Below, in pieces: positions 888-8,675 of a stretch of 64,000 bases of DNA; the first letter of the stretch is position 1; each line of letters opens with the position of its first letter. A program made the position numbers and the translations under genes. Below the pieces are notes generated by a model. The model was not told the DNA's origin, made no database searches, and saw nothing but the letters and a program-made list of their open reading frames with translations. The stretch covers positions 62,001 to 126,000 of the forward strand of contig NZ_JOII01000027.1 in assembly GCF_000719955.1 (NCBI RefSeq), written 5' to 3'. This stretch comes from Streptomyces albidoflavus (GTDB lineage Bacteria > Actinomycetota > Actinomycetes > Streptomycetales > Streptomycetaceae).

Positions 888-1880
888 ATGGAGCAGAGGC
901 ATCTGGGCCGCACCGGCCTGCGCGTGTCCCGCATCGGTCTGGGCACCCTGACCTGGGGCCGGGGCACCGACGAGCACGACGCCGCCGAGCTGGTGAAGAC
1001 CTTCTGGGAGGCGGGCGGTTCGCTCGTCGACACCGCCGACGTGTACGCGGACGGGGAGGCGGAGTACCTCCTCGGCCGGATCGTCGACCGGCTGGTCCCC
1101 CGCGAGGACCTGGTGATCGCCACCAAGGCGGGCAGCGTCCCCGACCCGCAGCGGCGGTTCGACGGCTCGCGCGGCCATCTCCTCGGCGCCCTCGACGCCT
1201 CCCTGCACCGGCTGGGCACCGACCACGTCGACCTGTGGCAGGTCCACGCCTTCGACCCGCTGACCCCGCTGGACGAAACTCTCCAGGCACTCGACATCGC
1301 CGTCACCACCGGCCGCGCCCGGTACGCGGGGGTCTCCAACTTCTCCGGCTGGCAGCTGGCCAAGGCCGCCACCTGGCAGCTGGCCCTGCCGGCCGGGCGC
1401 ACCAGACTGGCCAGCACCCAGATGGAGTACTCGCTGCTCCAGCGCGGCGTGGAGCGCGAGGTGCTGCCCGCCGCCCTCGACCTCGGCGTGGGCCTGCTCC
1501 CCTCCTCGCCGCTCGGCCGGGGCGTCCTCACCGGCAAGTACCGGCAGGCCGCTCCCCCGGGCCCGCCGGGTTCCCGGGGCGCCTCCGAGCAGCTGGCCGG
1601 GTTCGTCGCGCCCTACCTCGACGACGCGGGCGACCGGGTCGTCGACGCCCTCACCACCGCCGCCGACGGCCTGGCCGCCACCCCGCTCCAGGTGGCACTC
1701 GCCTGGGTCCGCGACCGGCCCGGCGTCTGCGCCCCCCTCGTCGGGCCGCGCACCGCCGAGCAGCTCGCGGCGGCACTGTCGGCGGAAGCCCTTACGCTTC
1801 CCGACGAGATCTGCCAGGCGCTCGACGACGTGTCGGCGCCCGTGCACCGCTATCCCGACCAGGACTGGAGCACGCTGTGA
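888..1880 (+). CDS. Aldo/keto reductase
   Basis: A 330-residue protein starting at the ATG of MEQRHLGRTGLRVS, the usual AKR N-terminus. Family features seen are LGTLTWGRG, the catalytic Asp and Tyr in LVDTADVYADGEAE near residues 46-56, the Lys in VIATKAGS, VDLWQVHAFDP and GVSNFSGWQ. These enzymes reduce carbonyl compounds with NADPH in the cytoplasm; the substrate is unknown. The start was chosen because upstream in-frame codons give no recognisable AKR sequence. The stop overlaps the GTG start of the next gene (GTGA), so the two are probably translationally coupled. Confidence 0.9.
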   Translation: MEQRHLGRTGLRVSRIGLGTLTWGRGTDEHDAAELVKTFWEAGGSLVDTADVYADGEAEYLLGRIVDRLVPREDLVIATKAGSVPDPQRRFDGSRGHLLGALDASLHRLGTDHVDLWQVHAFDPLTPLDETLQALDIAVTTGRARYAGVSNFSGWQLAKAATWQLALPAGRTRLASTQMEYSLLQRGVEREVLPAALDLGVGLLPSSPLGRGVLTGKYRQAAPPGPPGSRGASEQLAGFVAPYLDDAGDRVVDALTTAADGLAATPLQVALAWVRDRPGVCAPLVGPRTAEQLAAALSAEALTLPDEICQALDDVSAPVHRYPDQDWSTL

Positions 1881-4075
1881 GTACGGACCCCGCCGCCGCG
1901 CCCGCCGACGAGGACGCGCCCGCCCCCCAGGCGGCGGCCCCCGAGGACGCCCGGCCCCCGGAGCACGGCCCCGAGGAGACGCGGGGCGAGGCCGGCGACG
2001 GCGAGACTCCCGCCCCCTCCGGCGAGGAGGGCGAAGCGGCCGCGCCCGCGCTCTCCGAGGCGGAGGCCGAGCTGGCGGCCCAGCGTGAGCTGCGGCGGCG
2101 CATCGAGGAGCGCAAGGCCGGGCGGGAGGCGCCGGTCGAGGCGGGCGGCAAGCTCCAGGGTGCCGCCGCCGACCTGCTGGCCGCCGTCAAGGCGGTGGAG
2201 GGCGGGGCCGCGCCGACCGCGTACCTCCCCGAGACGGCGCCGGCCGCGCCGCGCAGGCCCGCCCCGGAGCCGGCCCGCCCCGCGCCCGCGCCGGTCGCCC
2301 CGGCGGCGCCCACCGGTCCCTCCGACCGGGCCGTGGACGAGGTCGCGGCAGTGCTCGCCGACGGCTCCGCCCCCGCCGCCCTCGCCCCCGCCGTCGCCGA
2401 GGCCCTGGGCGACGGCGCCGCCGAGACGCTGCGCGAGGACCCGTGGCAACTGCTGCACGCCCGAGGAGTACGCCCCGAGCAGGCCGACGGGTTCGCCCGC
2501 GCCCTCCTCGGCGCCGAGGCCAGGCCCGACGACGCGCGGCGCGGCCGGGCGGTCACCGGGTGGCTCCTGGAGCAGGCCGCCCTCGCCGGGCACACCGCCC
2601 TGGAGGCCGAGGCCCTGCGCGCGGCGCTCGGACAGCGCGCCGTCCCGGACCCGGAGGCCACCCTGCGCGAAGCGGTCGCCGAGGGCGACGTGCTGGTCTT
2701 CCAGGACCCGCTGGACACCGGCGCGCCGACGGCTCCGGTGTCCGGCCCCGGCGCGGACGAGACGGAGGAACCGGCCGAGACCCCGGTGCGGGTGCTGATC
2801 GGCCTGGAGCGGTACGCCCTGGCCGAGGAGAGCCTCGCCGACGGCCTGGCCGGGCTGGTGAACACCCGGCCGGCGGCCGGACCAGGAGCCGAGGAGTGGC
2901 AGGGCGCGGGCGGCGAGGGGCGCGGGTCGGCGGCCGAGCTGATCCGGGCCGCCGCCGGGCACGGCCTCGTCCTCCACTCGGGCGGCGAGGCGGCCCGCGC
3001 CGAACCGGCCGCGCTGCTCACCGCCGCCGCCTCCCTCGGCCTGCGGGCCTGGGGCGCGGCACACGGCCCCGACAGCCGGGCACGGCTCGCGGCGGCGCTC
3101 TCCGGCACCGAGGGCGGGGCGGCCACCGTGGCGGGGCTGCTCTCGGGCGCCGAGGGCCCCGGGCGGGACGCGGAGGGCTCGCTCGCCCTCGACCTGCTGG
3201 TCGTCCTCGACGCGCCGCAACTGGACGTGGAGAGCGCCGCGATGCTGGTCGAGGCGCTGCCCGACGGGGCGCGCCTCGTGCTCAGCGGCGACCCCGGGGT
3301 CCTCGGTTCGGCCGGTCCCGGCCGGGTCTTCGGCGACCTGCTGGCCGCGCGTGCCTGCCCCGTCGTCGTCTCCCGCACCCCGGACCCGGGCCCGGTGGGC
3401 GAGCTGGTCTCGGGCGTGGGCGCCGGTGAGCTGACGGCGGTGGACGCCCCCGGGCACGAGGTGGCGATCGTCCCGGTGCGCGACCCGGCCGAGGCCGTGC
3501 ACCGCACGGTGCAGCTGGTCACGGAGTCCGTGCCGCGCGCCTTCCAGGTCCCCCCGGAGCAGACCCTGGTGGTGACCCCGGGCCACGGAGGCGCGGCGGG
3601 CACCCGCGTGCTGAACGCCGCCCTGAAGGAGAAGTGCAACCCCGGCCCCGGCCGCTTCGCCGGTTTCGACCCGGGCGACCGGGTGGCGTACAGCCCGGCG
3701 CCGGGCCGCACCGAGCTGGGCCAGGTCCTCGGCGCCGAGCAGGAGGGCCTGCGGCTGCGCTGCGCGGGCGGCGAGGTCCTGGTCGCCCGCGACCGGGTGG
3801 CGGCCACCCTCCGCCACGGCTGGGCGGTCACCGCCCACCAGGCGGTCACCCTGCGCGCCCCGGCCGCCGTCGTGGTCGTCCCGGGCGACGCCGGCCCGGC
3901 CCTGGCCCGCGACTGGGTCTACACCGCCTTCGGCCGCGCGGAACGCCACCTCTCCGTCGTCCAGGGAGTCGGCCCGGCCCTCGCCACCGCGGTCGCGGAA
4001 CGCCCCGCCAAGCCCCGCACCACCCGCCTCCCCCTCCTGCTCAGGCCCCAGCTCCCGGCCCCGGCCACAGCCTGA
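1877..4075 (+). CDS. RecD2-like protein with helix-hairpin-helix region and degenerate ATPase motifs
   Basis: A 732-residue protein from a GTG that overlaps the preceding stop. Residues 1-150 are low-complexity, rich in Ala, Pro and Glu. Residues 150-240 resemble the helix-hairpin-helix part of RecD2 (EALGDGAAETLREDPWQLL, then RGVRPEQADGFARALLG). After that the order of a RecD SF1B helicase can be followed with key residues missing: the P-loop position reads GLVLHSGGEAARAEPAALL near residue 362 with no GxGKT; the Walker B region reads LVVLDAPQLDVESAAMLVEA instead of DEA; and LVLSGDPGVLGSAGPGRVF corresponds to motif III. The C-terminal WAVTAHQAVTLRAPAAVVVV resembles the RecD motif with a His-Lys-Ser-Gln core, also altered. 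It probably binds nucleic acid or a partner without ATP-driven unwinding. This is inference from motif comparison by eye. Confidence 0.7.
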   Translation: MSTDPAAAPADEDAPAPQAAAPEDARPPEHGPEETRGEAGDGETPAPSGEEGEAAAPALSEAEAELAAQRELRRRIEERKAGREAPVEAGGKLQGAAADLLAAVKAVEGGAAPTAYLPETAPAAPRRPAPEPARPAPAPVAPAAPTGPSDRAVDEVAAVLADGSAPAALAPAVAEALGDGAAETLREDPWQLLHARGVRPEQADGFARALLGAEARPDDARRGRAVTGWLLEQAALAGHTALEAEALRAALGQRAVPDPEATLREAVAEGDVLVFQDPLDTGAPTAPVSGPGADETEEPAETPVRVLIGLERYALAEESLADGLAGLVNTRPAAGPGAEEWQGAGGEGRGSAAELIRAAAGHGLVLHSGGEAARAEPAALLTAAASLGLRAWGAAHGPDSRARLAAALSGTEGGAATVAGLLSGAEGPGRDAEGSLALDLLVVLDAPQLDVESAAMLVEALPDGARLVLSGDPGVLGSAGPGRVFGDLLAARACPVVVSRTPDPGPVGELVSGVGAGELTAVDAPGHEVAIVPVRDPAEAVHRTVQLVTESVPRAFQVPPEQTLVVTPGHGGAAGTRVLNAALKEKCNPGPGRFAGFDPGDRVAYSPAPGRTELGQVLGAEQEGLRLRCAGGEVLVARDRVAATLRHGWAVTAHQAVTLRAPAAVVVVPGDAGPALARDWVYTAFGRAERHLSVVQGVGPALATAVAERPAKPRTTRLPLLLRPQLPAPATA

Positions 4076-4193: not shown

Positions 4194-4928
4194 TCAGATG
4201 CGCCCCCGCCGCTCCTGATACCCGTCCAGCCCCTCGGCGGCGTCCTCGTCGATGTCCATCACGTCGTCGAGCTCCCCGTCGTCGGAGTCGTCCGGGTCCT
4301 CGTCGAACACGGCGCTCATGTCGAAGCGGCAGACGACCAGCTCCGGATCGGCGTCCTCGAAGGGCGCGTCGAGCCACTCCCCGGGCTCGGCGGGCTCCTC
4401 GGCGGCCACCACCCACAGGGTGGAATCCCCCTCCTCCAGCCCGAACTCCTTGTGCCGGGAGGCGACCTCGTCCGCCTCGTACTCGCCGAACAGGATGCCG
4501 AGGGCGGCGTGCACGCTGTCCCCGACCACGCCCTGGGCCCCCGCCCCGGAGCCGGGCGGGGCGGCGGCCCCGGCCCGGTCGTGGTCGGCGATGCGCTGCG
4601 CCTGGGAGAGCAGCCGCCGGGGTTCGGCGACCGCGTAGTCGCGGCGGATGAGGACGCTCAGGGCACTGGGCTCGTCGGGCCCGGTGTACGGCGGCAGGGC
4701 CTCCTCGGCGTCGGGGATGTCGAAGGGGGTGACCTCGTCGTAGCGCTCGTAGAGCAGTTCGTCGTATTCCTCGGCGGCGGCGGCCAGGTCGTTGAAGGCG
4801 GCGTGGACGGCCGGATCGTCCTCGCCCGTCCTGCGCTCCACCGCGGCCAGGTGGCGGTCGAGCGCGGTCTTGACCGCCTCGGCGGCGGCCCGTACCTCGG
4901 CAGCCGTGGGCTGCTCAGCATCAGACAT
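4194..4928 (-). CDS. Conserved acidic hypothetical protein
   Basis: A 244-residue protein starting at the ATG of MSDAEQPTAAEVRAAAEAV; the longer frame upstream lacks support. Residues 5-60 look helical (HLAAVERRTG, FNDLAAAAEEYDELLYERYD). A middle part reads PSALSVLIRRDYAVAEPRRLL, and the C-terminal 60 residues are strongly acidic (DEDPDDSDDGELDDVMD). There is no signal peptide, membrane segment or known catalytic motif. It is divergent from the DUF5703 gene with 47 bp between the starts, so the two share a promoter region. No function can be assigned. Confidence 0.8.
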   Translation of the reverse strand: MSDAEQPTAAEVRAAAEAVKTALDRHLAAVERRTGEDDPAVHAAFNDLAAAAEEYDELLYERYDEVTPFDIPDAEEALPPYTGPDEPSALSVLIRRDYAVAEPRRLLSQAQRIADHDRAGAAAPPGSGAGAQGVVGDSVHAALGILFGEYEADEVASRHKEFGLEEGDSTLWVVAAEEPAEPGEWLDAPFEDADPELVVCRFDMSAVFDEDPDDSDDGELDDVMDIDEDAAEGLDGYQERRGRI

Positions 4929-4975
4929 GGTGCTGACGCTATCCGTACCGGGGCCGCTCCCGCACAATAGATGCG

Positions 4976-5269: not shown

Positions 5270-6028
5270 TCAGGCGGCCTGGCGTGCCTTGCGGTAGAGG
5301 ATCGCTCCGCCGAGCAGCAGCCCGCCGGCCGCGGCACCGCCGAGGCCCAGCGGCACGGAGCTGCCCGTCACGGCGAGCTCCTCCGGGACCTCCGGGGTGA
5401 CCGGGGGCTTCACCGGCTTCTCCGGAGTGACCGGGGGCTCCACGGGCTTCTCCGGGGTGACCGGCGGCTCCACGGGCTTCTCGGGCTTCTCCGGGGTGAC
5501 CGGGGGCTTCTCCGGCTCGGGCGCCGTGTTGGCGCAGTTGTTGCCGAAGGCGGGGTTCAGCAGCCCGACCACGGAGACGGAGTTGCCGCAGACGTTCACC
5601 GGCACGTCGACCGGCGCCTGGACGACGTTGCCGGAGAGGAGCCCCGGCGAGCCGGCGGCGACGGCCTCGGCACTCGCACCCGAGGTGGAGTCGCCGCTGT
5701 CGGCGGTCCGGGTGGCTCCGCCCGCCCGGTTGGAGCTGTCCCCCGCCGGCTCGGCCGCGCGCTCGGCGGGCCCGGCCTGGCTCCCGCCGCTGTTGGCGCA
5801 GCTGTTGCCGAAGGCGGGGTTGAGGAGACCCACCACGTCCACGCTGTTGCCGCAGGCGTTGACCGGCACGTGGACCGGGACGGAGACGGAGTTGCCGGAG
5901 AGCACGCCCGGCGAGTTGGTGGCGGCGCTGCCCGCGCCCGCGTCGGCTTGTGCGTAACCGCCGGTGACGGCGATGACGCCGGTGGCCGCGGCCACCGTGA
6001 TCAGGCCCTTGCGCATGACCTGTCGCAT
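5270..6028 (-). CDS. chpC: Long chaplin with two chaplin domains and sortase motif
   Basis: A 252-residue secreted, wall-anchored protein. The start at MRQVMRKG is supported by AGGGA 7 bases upstream; a second ATG lies 12 bases further in. The order is signal peptide (1-28); chaplin domain 1 (GVLSGNSVSVPVHVPVNACG then VGLLNPAFGNSCAN); a Ser/Gly/Ala linker; chaplin domain 2 with the same two-cysteine layout; a Pro/Glu/Lys spacer of repeated PVTPEKP units; LAVTG at 218-222 for a class E-type sortase; a hydrophobic helix; and a basic tail RKARQAA. Chaplins coat aerial hyphae and spores with amphipathic fibres. The pairing with a short chaplin matches chpC/chpH of S. coelicolor as I recall it. 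Confidence 0.92.
   Translation of the reverse strand: MRQVMRKGLITVAAATGVIAVTGGYAQADAGAGSAATNSPGVLSGNSVSVPVHVPVNACGNSVDVVGLLNPAFGNSCANSGGSQAGPAERAAEPAGDSSNRAGGATRTADSGDSTSGASAEAVAAGSPGLLSGNVVQAPVDVPVNVCGNSVSVVGLLNPAFGNNCANTAPEPEKPPVTPEKPEKPVEPPVTPEKPVEPPVTPEKPVKPPVTPEVPEELAVTGSSVPLGLGGAAAGGLLLGGAILYRKARQAA
5400..5515 (-). repeat. 30-bp in-frame repeats coding the chaplin wall spacer
   Basis: Units of 30 bp begin at 5400 and 5430, followed by a 39-bp variant at 5460 and a partial unit. They encode PVTPEKPVEP-type repeats just before the sortase motif. Unit count is expected to vary between strains by slippage. Confidence 0.75.
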
Positions 6029-6097
6029 AGGTTGTTCCCTGCCTTTGACCTTCCGGAGTGTGCGCCACCCGACTGGGTGGCGCCCGTAGATGCCGAC

Positions 6098-6130
6098 GGC
6101 CCCGGAGCGCATGGCGCGCGCTCCGGGGCC
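6098..6130 (-). terminator. Terminator of the short chaplin gene
   Basis: A 13-bp perfect stem (GGCCCCGGAGCGC/GCGCTCCGGGGCC) with a 7-base loop, between chpH and chpC on the same strand. It suggests the two are transcribed separately. Confidence 0.7.
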
Positions 6131-6171
6131 GGCGGACTTCAGCCCCACGTGAGGCGGGGCGAGGCGCAACG

Positions 6172-6405
6172 TCAGGCGTTGACGCAGGCGTTGCCGAAGG
6201 CGGGGTTCAGCAGACCGATCACGGAGACGGTGTTGCCACAGACGTTCACCGGGACGTGGACCGGAACCTGGACCACGTTGCCGGACAGAACGCCGGGGGA
6301 ACCGACAGCGGCACCCTGGGCACCGGCGTCGGCGACGGCCATGCCCGCACCGGCGAGAACGAGGCCACCCGTGGCTGCCGCAGCGGCGACGACCTTCTTG
6401 ATCAT
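6172..6405 (-). CDS. chpH: Short chaplin
   Basis: A 77-residue secreted protein. The ATG is set by GGAGG four bases upstream. The signal peptide is MIKKVVAAAAATGGLVLAGA to about residue 26; the single chaplin domain follows (GVLSGNVVQVPVHVPVNVCG, then IGLLNPAFGNACVNA) with the two conserved cysteines and the terminal NACVNA. Short chaplins self-assemble into surface-active amyloid-like fibrils on aerial structures. An unusually A/T-containing leader at 6406-6480 holds the likely promoter; dependence on the developmental sigma factors of this family is known elsewhere but cannot be shown here. Confidence 0.93.
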   Translation of the reverse strand: MIKKVVAAAAATGGLVLAGAGMAVADAGAQGAAVGSPGVLSGNVVQVPVHVPVNVCGNTVSVIGLLNPAFGNACVNA

Positions 6406-6551
6406 GATTCCTCCTTGTTGGCAATGCGATCCCAGCCGCGGACCGCACCACGTGTAACGAAGAATCCAAGGAGGGGGTACGTGCGGAATCCGACGTTCAC
6501 TCTTCCCAGTCGGATGCGTACGCCCGGCCGAATACGGCGTGAGGCCGGTGG

Positions 6552-6590
6552 GCCGGGGCGCGGCGCGGGGGAGACTGCCCGCGCCCCGGC
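6552..6590 (-). terminator. Hairpin after the M20 hydrolase gene
   Basis: A 10-bp stem GCCGGGGCGC/GCGCCCCGGC with a 19-base loop, 50 bases after the stop codon of the minus-strand hydrolase. Confidence 0.45.
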
Positions 6591-6641
6591 TGCGGCAACC
6601 GGACCAACGGGCGGCCGCCGCCAAGCTCACCCGATAGGGCG

Positions 6642-7976: not shown

Positions 7977-8182
7977 GCTGCTCCTTGGCTTGTCGCCGTG
8001 TTGGGTCCTCTCATCCTCACCCCGGGCGGGCCTCGCGCCCAAGACCGGGTCCCGGCCGACATACGCCCGTCACACGCGGCGCCCCTCCCGGGGCGGGACC
8101 CGGGGGTGATCGGGGACCCCCAGATGTTTGCTATGGTTTTCCACGTCGCCGCAGGGAAGACCCGGCGGACGACAGACACCTT

Positions 8183-8267
8183 GTCCGGGTGGCGGAATGG
8201 CAGACGCGCTAGCTTGAGGTGCTAGTGCCCTTTATCGGGCGTGGGGGTTCAAGTCCCCCCTCGGACA
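8183..8267 (+). tRNA. tRNA-Leu (anticodon GAG)
   Basis: A full class II cloverleaf can be folded. The acceptor GTCCGGG (8183-8189) pairs with CTCGGAC (8260-8266), with discriminator A at 8267. The D-stem is GCG/CGC, the anticodon stem CTAGC/GCTAG has loop TTGAGGT (anticodon GAG at 8216-8218), a long variable arm includes TGCCC/GGGCG, and the T-arm is GGGGG-TTCAAGT-CCCCC. CCA is not encoded. It reads leucine CUC/CUU codons. A truncated gene runs antisense into its 3' half. Confidence 0.95.
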
Positions 8268-8568
8268 TGATCAGCGTCACGGTGCCCTGGTCCATCAGGT
8301 CGAGGAGTTGGCCGACCGCGGCCCGGTGGGCCGGGTCGGCCAGCTCGGTGCGGTACCGCTCGGTGAAGCCGTCGTACCGCTCCTCGGGGTTCTGGTGGTA
8401 CCAGTCGCGCAGCTCGGTCGAGGGGGTGATCTCCTTCAGCCACACGTCGACGGCGGCGCGTTCCTTGGAGACGCCCCGGGGCCAGAGCCGGTCGACGAGG
8501 ACGCGGGTGCCGTCGGAGGGCTCGGCGGGCTCGTACACCCGGCGTACCCGGGGGGCTTCGTCACTCAC
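8209..8568 (-). pseudogene. DUF488 family protein, C-terminus lost at the tRNA-Leu 3' end
   Basis: The frame opens at a GTG (VSDEAPRVRRVYEP) with AAGGA upstream and gives 119 residues. Residues 1-100 match DUF488 well: VRRVYEPAEPSDGTRVLVDR, LWPRGVSKERAAVD, LKEITPSTELRDWY, TVTLI. The family normally continues with about 20 more residues (a T-A-x-x-D core followed by an AVLAE helix). Here the homologous sequence stops exactly where the tRNA begins (8267), and the last residues SEGGLEPPRPIKGTSTSS are simply the antisense of the tRNA. The protein is probably misfolded or inactive; the function of intact members is not established. Confidence 0.75.
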
Positions 8569-8675
8569 GGCGGCGTCCTTCGGCGAGGGGATCCCTACCC
8601 GCGATGAGACCACCGGGAGCGCGGGTGGGCCCGGCGGCCTGCGCCGGGCGGGGGACGGCCGTGGAGAATGGGGCC

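Follow-up and report, generated by a model that had tools for sequence, protein, structure and literature searches.

What does a bacterium gain from keeping a helicase that has no recognizable motor? The question is raised by a gene on the forward strand of a 64,000-nucleotide stretch of Streptomyces albidoflavus DNA (assembly GCF_000719955.1, contig NZ_JOII01000027.1, positions 62,001 to 126,000), referred to here as the window. An earlier annotation made without database searches (the original prediction) described the product as a full-length, RecD2-like protein that had lost its ATPase motifs, encoded by an uninterrupted open reading frame linked to an aldo/keto reductase gene, and proposed that it was a retained pseudo-helicase, possibly a DNA-structure or protein adaptor, rather than a decaying gene. 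The protein has the RecD2 fold, has lost motifs I, II, III, IV and V, belongs to a single clade of degenerate sequences and is under purifying selection. Other Actinomycetes have an ATPase-competent RecD2-like helicase, of which it is the ortholog by sequence and partly by position. The nucleotide site was most likely lost once, in an ancestor common to the Streptomycetaceae and the Nocardiopsis-type bacteria (family f17), and the protein probably serves as a scaffold, not as a motor.

A RecD2 fold without its ATPase motifs

The similarity to RecD2 is real at both the profile and the fold level. The protein matches HHH_RecD2 (a helix-hairpin-helix, HHH, domain; expectation value, E, of 1e-10; 41.8 bits for a Pfam cut-off of 27) and AAA_30 (residues 382–493; E 9.7e-7, above the curated Pfam cut-off), with a match to UvrD_C_2 (residues 647–695) below the curated cut-off, and it can be aligned with RecD2 structures. 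Its score of 101.6 bits with the NCBIfam RecD2 model (TIGR01448) falls short of the equivalog cut-off of 500, as do those of active short orthologues (414.1 and 409.6 bits), and the RecD subunit of RecBCD (TIGR01447) is matched at 38.7 bits, where 310.15 are needed. Pfam found no relaxase family in the protein at E values up to 1, and it is not, therefore, a relaxase of the TraI type. The description as full length holds from HHH_RecD2 onward, but not for the N-terminal part, because the RecD2 match starts only at this domain (TIGR01448 profile position 136). The canonical N-terminal part is replaced by a mostly disordered tail and a conserved, partly helical segment (residues 59–112), with helices at 61–82 and, at low confidence, 96–108 in the structure model. 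No convincing further copy of this segment was found in the genome, the best other match (E 0.28) being at chance level.

The loss of the ATPase motifs (Walker A, Walker B and the late motif) was confirmed. Neither the Walker A pattern GxxxxGK[ST] nor the Walker B pattern DE[AST]S of RecD2 helicases is present, and a search for a P-loop elsewhere in the protein found no GxxxxGK[ST] at any position. The alignment comprised 121 Streptomyces-type, 120 Nocardiopsis-type and 120 Frankia-type proteins, namely the window protein and the best 120 listed matches for each type, which are not random samples. The column of the Walker A lysine holds a glutamate (E376) in all 121 Streptomyces-type proteins, an assignment that hinges on gap placement in the shortened loop, whereas the Walker B assignment is gap-free, with D444→L and E445→D relative to the active form in 121/121. 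The missing lysine is, thus, a feature of all Streptomyces-type proteins aligned, and the motif changes are far from chance, because the altered residues are common to the whole family. In the structure model, the P-loop has collapsed into a strand (364–368), two residues and a helix (371–386). GxxxxGK[ST] occurs in 120/120 Frankia-type proteins, as against 0/120 Nocardiopsis-type proteins. It was also found in three of the 121 Streptomyces-type proteins (twice in the disordered tail and once, in P0049, in segment 59–112), where the lysine is unconserved and the match was dismissed as coincidence. The motif V consensus HRxQG is replaced by HQAVT in the window protein; position 658 is a glycine in 80 of 81 Streptomyces sequences, the motif V histidine (H654) is kept in 81/81 and the motif VI arginine (R687) in 79/81.

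The same picture emerges locus by locus. None of 80 named Streptomyces, 20 further Streptomycetaceae and 16 f17 loci has the pattern for Walker A, Walker B, III, IV or V; the motif VI pattern TAxTRA was found in 0, 1 and 8 of them, respectively. Walker A, Walker B, III, V and VI are all present in 9/9 loci of the Frankia-type family f18 and 7/7 loci of family f14, with motif IV in 7/9 and 7/7. In the six loci from other families, the counts are three for each of Walker A, Walker B, III and IV, two for V and four for VI.

Table 1. Features of the pseudo-helicase and the adjoining reductase gene, in window coordinates
Feature	Residues	Position	Strand	Remarks
Aldo/keto reductase gene		888..1880	+	Pfam PF00248, E 6.2e-62
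Pseudo-RecD2 gene	1–732	1877..4075	+	732 residues; start GTG, stop TGA; frame uninterrupted
Disordered tail	1–58	1877..2050	+	predicted local distance difference test (pLDDT) score < 50 at 1–4 and 6–55; dN/dS 0.77
Conserved segment at place of canonical N-terminal domain	59–112	2051..2212	+	dN/dS 0.285
HHH_RecD2 domain	151–240	2327..2596	+	Pfam PF14490
RecA-like domain 1A	350–495	2924..3361	+	from alignment to RecD2 structures and motif positions; boundary approximate, our choice
Former Walker A (P-loop)	366–378	2972..3010	+	reads LHSGGEAARAEPA
Former Walker B	440–452	3194..3232	+	reads LLVVLDAPQLDVE
Former motif III	466–492	3272..3352	+	Gln of GDxxQLP gone
Domain 2A/2B	496–720	3362..4036	+	boundary approximate; strongly constrained overall
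Former motif V	646–660	3812..3856	+	TAHQAVT where active relatives have TVHRAQG
Motif VI	682–692	3920..3952	+	YTAFGRAERHL; Arg of TRA retained

Ancestry, selection and distribution

In a tree of 81 sequences, built with the motif columns removed, rooted on canonical RecD2 and with long branches flagged, every degenerate sequence, including the eroded copies of families f8 and f31, fell into one clade (Shimodaira–Hasegawa-like approximate likelihood ratio test, SH-aLRT, 98). A second tree of 69 sequences, built after removal of the three rows with long branches and of nine canonical rows (out of 17), grouped the 42 degenerate rows (bootstrap 98, SH-aLRT 98), with one change of state; the f17 group inside the degenerate clade was weakly supported (83/39). 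Loss of catalytic residues and descent from an active helicase, the active groups lying outside the single degenerate clade, correspond to two parts of the definition of a pseudohelicase (PMC4504706), the third being a lack of ATPase and unwinding activity in vitro. The active members of the family are short RecD2-like helicases from f14 and Frankia-type (f18) Actinomycetes. They commonly bear the name AAA family ATPase and differ from the window protein in that 16/16 loci counted have retained Walker A, Walker B, III and V; the Frankia-type proteins (30 rows) are 36–40% identical to it. Two f31 genomes have trimmed orthologues, both next to the reductase gene: L155:4740-5867 (375 residues; 4-base overlap) and L156:2096-3139 (347 residues; 83-base gap). 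Their matches run from Walker B to 2A and resume at motifs V–VI; neither the P-loop half nor the 2B region is present. They share 46% identity, and the short form does not, therefore, stem from a single recent deletion. In one f8 genome, the region from HHH to Walker B is also mostly gone.

Selection was estimated as the ratio of non-synonymous to synonymous substitution (dN/dS), by a Nei-Gojobori count over 800 random pairs from the 81 Streptomyces sequences. Synonymous change is partly saturated in these GC-rich genomes and absolute values are rough; the weight rests on the comparison with two neighbouring genes, for which 674 and 737 of these 800 pairs were used. The whole pseudo-helicase gave a value of 0.30 (median over all 3240 pairs, 0.294), the reductase 0.13 and the M20 peptidase 0.17, so the pseudo-helicase overall evolves faster than these two neighbours. 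The purifying selection that the original prediction suggested looking for was found, dN/dS being below 1. By block, the values, in addition to those in Table 1, were 0.27 for HHH, 0.22 around the former Walker A, 0.42 for residues 386–435, 0.14 for Walker B/III, 0.15 for 496–560, 0.23 for 561–645 and 0.125 for 646–718 (motifs V–VI).

Neighbouring genes were called by a home-made rule based on GC content at third codon positions (GC3) in 101 Streptomycetaceae loci (the window, 80 named Streptomyces contigs and 20 others). In 90 of them, the reductase gene is the immediate same-strand neighbour upstream, with a 4-base overlap in 80 of the 90; in the window, the GTG start of the pseudo-RecD2 gene overlaps the TGA stop of the reductase gene by 4 bases. 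The reductase gene is also directly upstream in 9/17 f17, 4/7 f14 and 4/6 other-family loci, and in 0/10 f18 loci; the remaining three f14 loci have one extra predicted frame between reductase and helicase. On the other side, the next predicted gene encodes an M20 peptidase in five of the seven f14 loci, and the same peptidase lies downstream of the Streptomyces locus too, past the chaplin genes. These shared neighbours indicate that the Streptomyces gene occupies the place of the intact helicase elsewhere. Since the reductase also adjoins intact helicase orthologues, the linkage is older than the ATPase loss and, thus, says little about the function of the pseudo-enzyme.

The family profile matched all 121 Streptomycetaceae genomes, with a best E of at most 5.2e-77 in 119 and only weak matches in two (G038 and G075; E 1.8e-16 and 8.1e-15). 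Class-wide, 99 of 296 genomes were matched at E 1e-20; many of the stronger matches outside the Streptomycetaceae are orthologues of the pseudo-RecD2 gene, whereas those near 85–115 bits look like canonical RecD2. In f17, the 27 matched genomes comprise 17 with the paralogue and 10 with only canonical-RecD2-sized matches (our count). Judging by protein names among the listed matches, the degenerate f17 type belongs mostly to Nocardiopsis, Streptomonospora, Thermobifida and their relatives; Frankia, Parafrankia and Pseudofrankia have the active f18 type. Across 346 genomes of the phylum, there were 14 matches at E 1e-35, 10 of them from the genus of the window. The other four are from f54 genomes outside the class (G435, G457, G595 and G661), at 125–130 bits, somewhat above the scores of canonical RecD2 in the class search (about 80–115 bits). 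A single frame spans the profile (from position 180 or earlier to at least 720) in 80/80 named Streptomyces, 20/20 further Streptomycetaceae and 16/17 f17 loci, the exception being L150, in which the gene is split across two frames. Eight family matches first listed with an internal stop have one open frame to profile position 731–734, with the stop at the edge.

Canonical RecD2 coexists with the pseudo-helicase in the f1 and f17 genomes checked. The window genome encodes it elsewhere (839.6 bits, contig 20 of G000), and RecD2 above the cut-off was found in 18 of 26 chosen genomes: 5/5 Streptomycetaceae, 8/8 f17, 5/5 f18 and 0/5 from f14, f12 and f7, where the best match was the short active form (395–425 bits). 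It was not found above the cut-off in the three genomes with eroded copies (G127, G158 and G175; f31 and f8), which are 84–96% complete, making the absence uncertain. An obligate partnership with canonical RecD2 was considered and is unsupported by these three genomes, and by ten f17 genomes that appear, by score and position only, to have canonical RecD2 but no paralogue. The Streptomycetaceae genomes checked, thus, encode two RecD2-fold proteins, only one of which is apparently motor-capable, despite source names within the dead family such as ‘ATP-dependent RecD-like DNA helicase’ and ‘DNA helicase RecD’. In G126, a genome of family f7 in which canonical RecD2 was not found, an extra RecD2-like match (contig 218, 16453–17820, minus strand; 235 bits) accompanies the short active orthologue.

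Possible functions of the pseudo-helicase

Relative to the mean conservation of the protein, motifs Ia–Ic, which contact DNA, score higher in the active group (+0.140) and lower in the Streptomyces (−0.141) and Nocardiopsis (−0.039) groups. In the Streptomyces group, Walker B/III, 2A and motifs V–VI remain above the mean, and the HHH domain is very acidic (−7.75 charges per 100 residues, and −0.80 in the Nocardiopsis group); 67 positions are conserved across all three protein groups compared. This pattern of constraint and the trimmed f31 and f8 forms favour a function seated in domain 2A and the parts around it, which would most simply be protein binding rather than tracking on single-stranded DNA (ssDNA). 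We consider it fairly probable that the protein is a stand-alone superfamily 1B (SF1B) pseudo-helicase, with a site dismantled once, that was then kept by selection and acts as a rigid adaptor presenting 2A to partners. Judging from its sequence, it would be unable to bind or hydrolyse ATP, or to translocate; it may offer domain 2A and segment 59–112 to DNA-metabolism proteins, and the motor task may be left to canonical RecD2. Of the two functions originally proposed, the conservation pattern, thus, leans towards the protein adaptor.

Several observations weigh against this reading. The retained motif V histidine and motif VI arginine make DNA binding possible, and the intact TAxTRA pattern persists in half of the f17 loci counted above. 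In the Streptomyces group, the 2A/2B region has no acidic excess (+0.45 per 100 residues), and the charge argument is not general, because the HHH domain of the Nocardiopsis group is less acidic than that of active relatives, and acidity is already higher in the active lineage than in canonical RecD2. Motifs Ia–Ic are only slightly below the mean in the Nocardiopsis group, and the trimmed form is known from two incomplete genomes (87 and 84% complete). Finally, known pseudo-helicases, such as Deinococcus radiodurans PriA (PMC4504706) and the vestigial domain of TraI (PMC3912908), bind DNA.

By analogy with these two proteins, the pseudo-helicase might still bind ssDNA or forks, as a DNA-structure sensor or a loading platform recruiting replication and repair proteins, which seems possible but doubtful. 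PriA, which has lost ATPase and unwinding activities, can bind both ssDNA and forks and makes contact with DnaB (PMC4504706), and the RecD2-like domain of TraI has lost helicase activity but kept ssDNA binding (PMC3912908). The retained histidine and arginine and the 67 shared positions are consistent with such a role, whereas the altered, poorly conserved motifs Ia–Ic and the acidic HHH domain of the Streptomyces group, and the absence of the P-loop half of 1A in two relatives, argue against it.

An enzyme–scaffold pair with the adjacent aldo/keto reductase would fit the frequency with which the two genes adjoin and overlap, but is unlikely, as the adjacency is also seen beside active helicases, predating the ATPase loss, and is absent from the Frankia-type loci; we know of no link between aldo/keto reductase and RecD2-type families. 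Cryptic ATPase activity, or binding of some other nucleotide via a rebuilt pocket, is very unlikely: the cleft blocks (former Walker A, B and III) are among the conserved parts, as if the pocket mattered, and the motif VI arginine is kept, but Glu and Leu stand in place of the Walker A Lys and the Walker B Asp throughout the Streptomyces-type proteins, the P-loop is collapsed in the model, and the only GxxxxGK[ST] matches among these proteins lie in the N-terminal tail or segment 59–112. The decay of a redundant RecD2 paralogue, suggested by the lost motifs and, in f17, by partial gene loss (the 10 genomes with only canonical-sized matches) and the split L150 locus, is scarcely credible and was rejected for Streptomyces, given open frames in 100/100 Streptomycetaceae loci and the eight further matches, dN/dS well under 1 even in the ex-catalytic blocks, and new residue identities fixed in 121/121 proteins, all of which support the retained pseudo-helicase originally proposed. 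A role in a defence system was also discarded, PADLOC matches being weak and partial only.

The adaptor reading can be extended, tentatively, to a helicase family losing its motor stepwise, from the intact enzyme (Frankia-type, f14), through a dead but complete RecA-pair scaffold (Streptomycetaceae, Nocardiopsis-type), to what is left in the two f31 genomes, some 350 residues from which the P-loop half is missing. The function would then reside in a partner-binding 2A surface already present in the active enzyme and, if this is true, selection can act on a role of an SF1B helicase for which ATP is not required.

It is already established that inactivated helicase folds can be retained for another role, as in TraI, AddB, RecC and PriA. 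Canonical RecD2 (see PMC12143592 and PMC3757182), which is an SF1B 5'-3' helicase known from B. subtilis and D. radiodurans, differs from the window protein in its ATPase motifs, of which only the motif VI arginine is shared, and in its N-terminal domain. The vestigial domain of TraI has a RecD2-like fold and has lost helicase activity (PMC3912908, PMC5422253), but is located inside a relaxase beside an active helicase, whereas the window protein is stand-alone. The inactivated domains of AddB and RecC have an SF1 fold without most motifs and are kept for Chi recognition (PMC4824097), but are UvrD-like and belong to a helicase–nuclease complex. D. radiodurans PriA and ImuB, a dead polymerase that provides a precedent by analogy, are catalytically dead DNA-metabolism proteins with another role (PMC4504706, PMC6511836), but belong to other protein families; in the PriA of Deinococcus-Thermus, the Walker A Lys is replaced by Arg, whereas the entire site is rebuilt in the window protein. 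No description of a stand-alone RecD2-type pseudo-helicase in Streptomyces was found in the open-access library searched, subscription papers being mostly outside its scope. A family-wide pseudo-RecD2 with living active orthologues provides a natural experiment on the scaffold and motor roles of an SF1B helicase.

Neighbouring genes in the window

The reductase start at 888 is our choice, the heuristic reading frame having started at 864. A gene for a conserved acidic protein (4194–4967, minus strand), for which no Pfam or NCBIfam match was found at E 0.001, is convergent with that of the pseudo-helicase; by our gene calls, this arrangement occurs in 97 of the 101 Streptomycetaceae loci. The chaplin genes between the pseudo-helicase gene and the M20 peptidase gene are at 5270–6169 and 6172–6630 (minus strand); the first has two ChpA-C stretches, and the second is similar to it by eye only. 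Further downstream, a DUF488 frame (8209–8613, minus strand), the best Pfam match of which is the ‘inactive’ DUF488-N3i subclade, overlaps at its 3' end with a tRNA-Leu (GAG) gene (8182–8268, plus strand) and, thus, runs into the tRNA.

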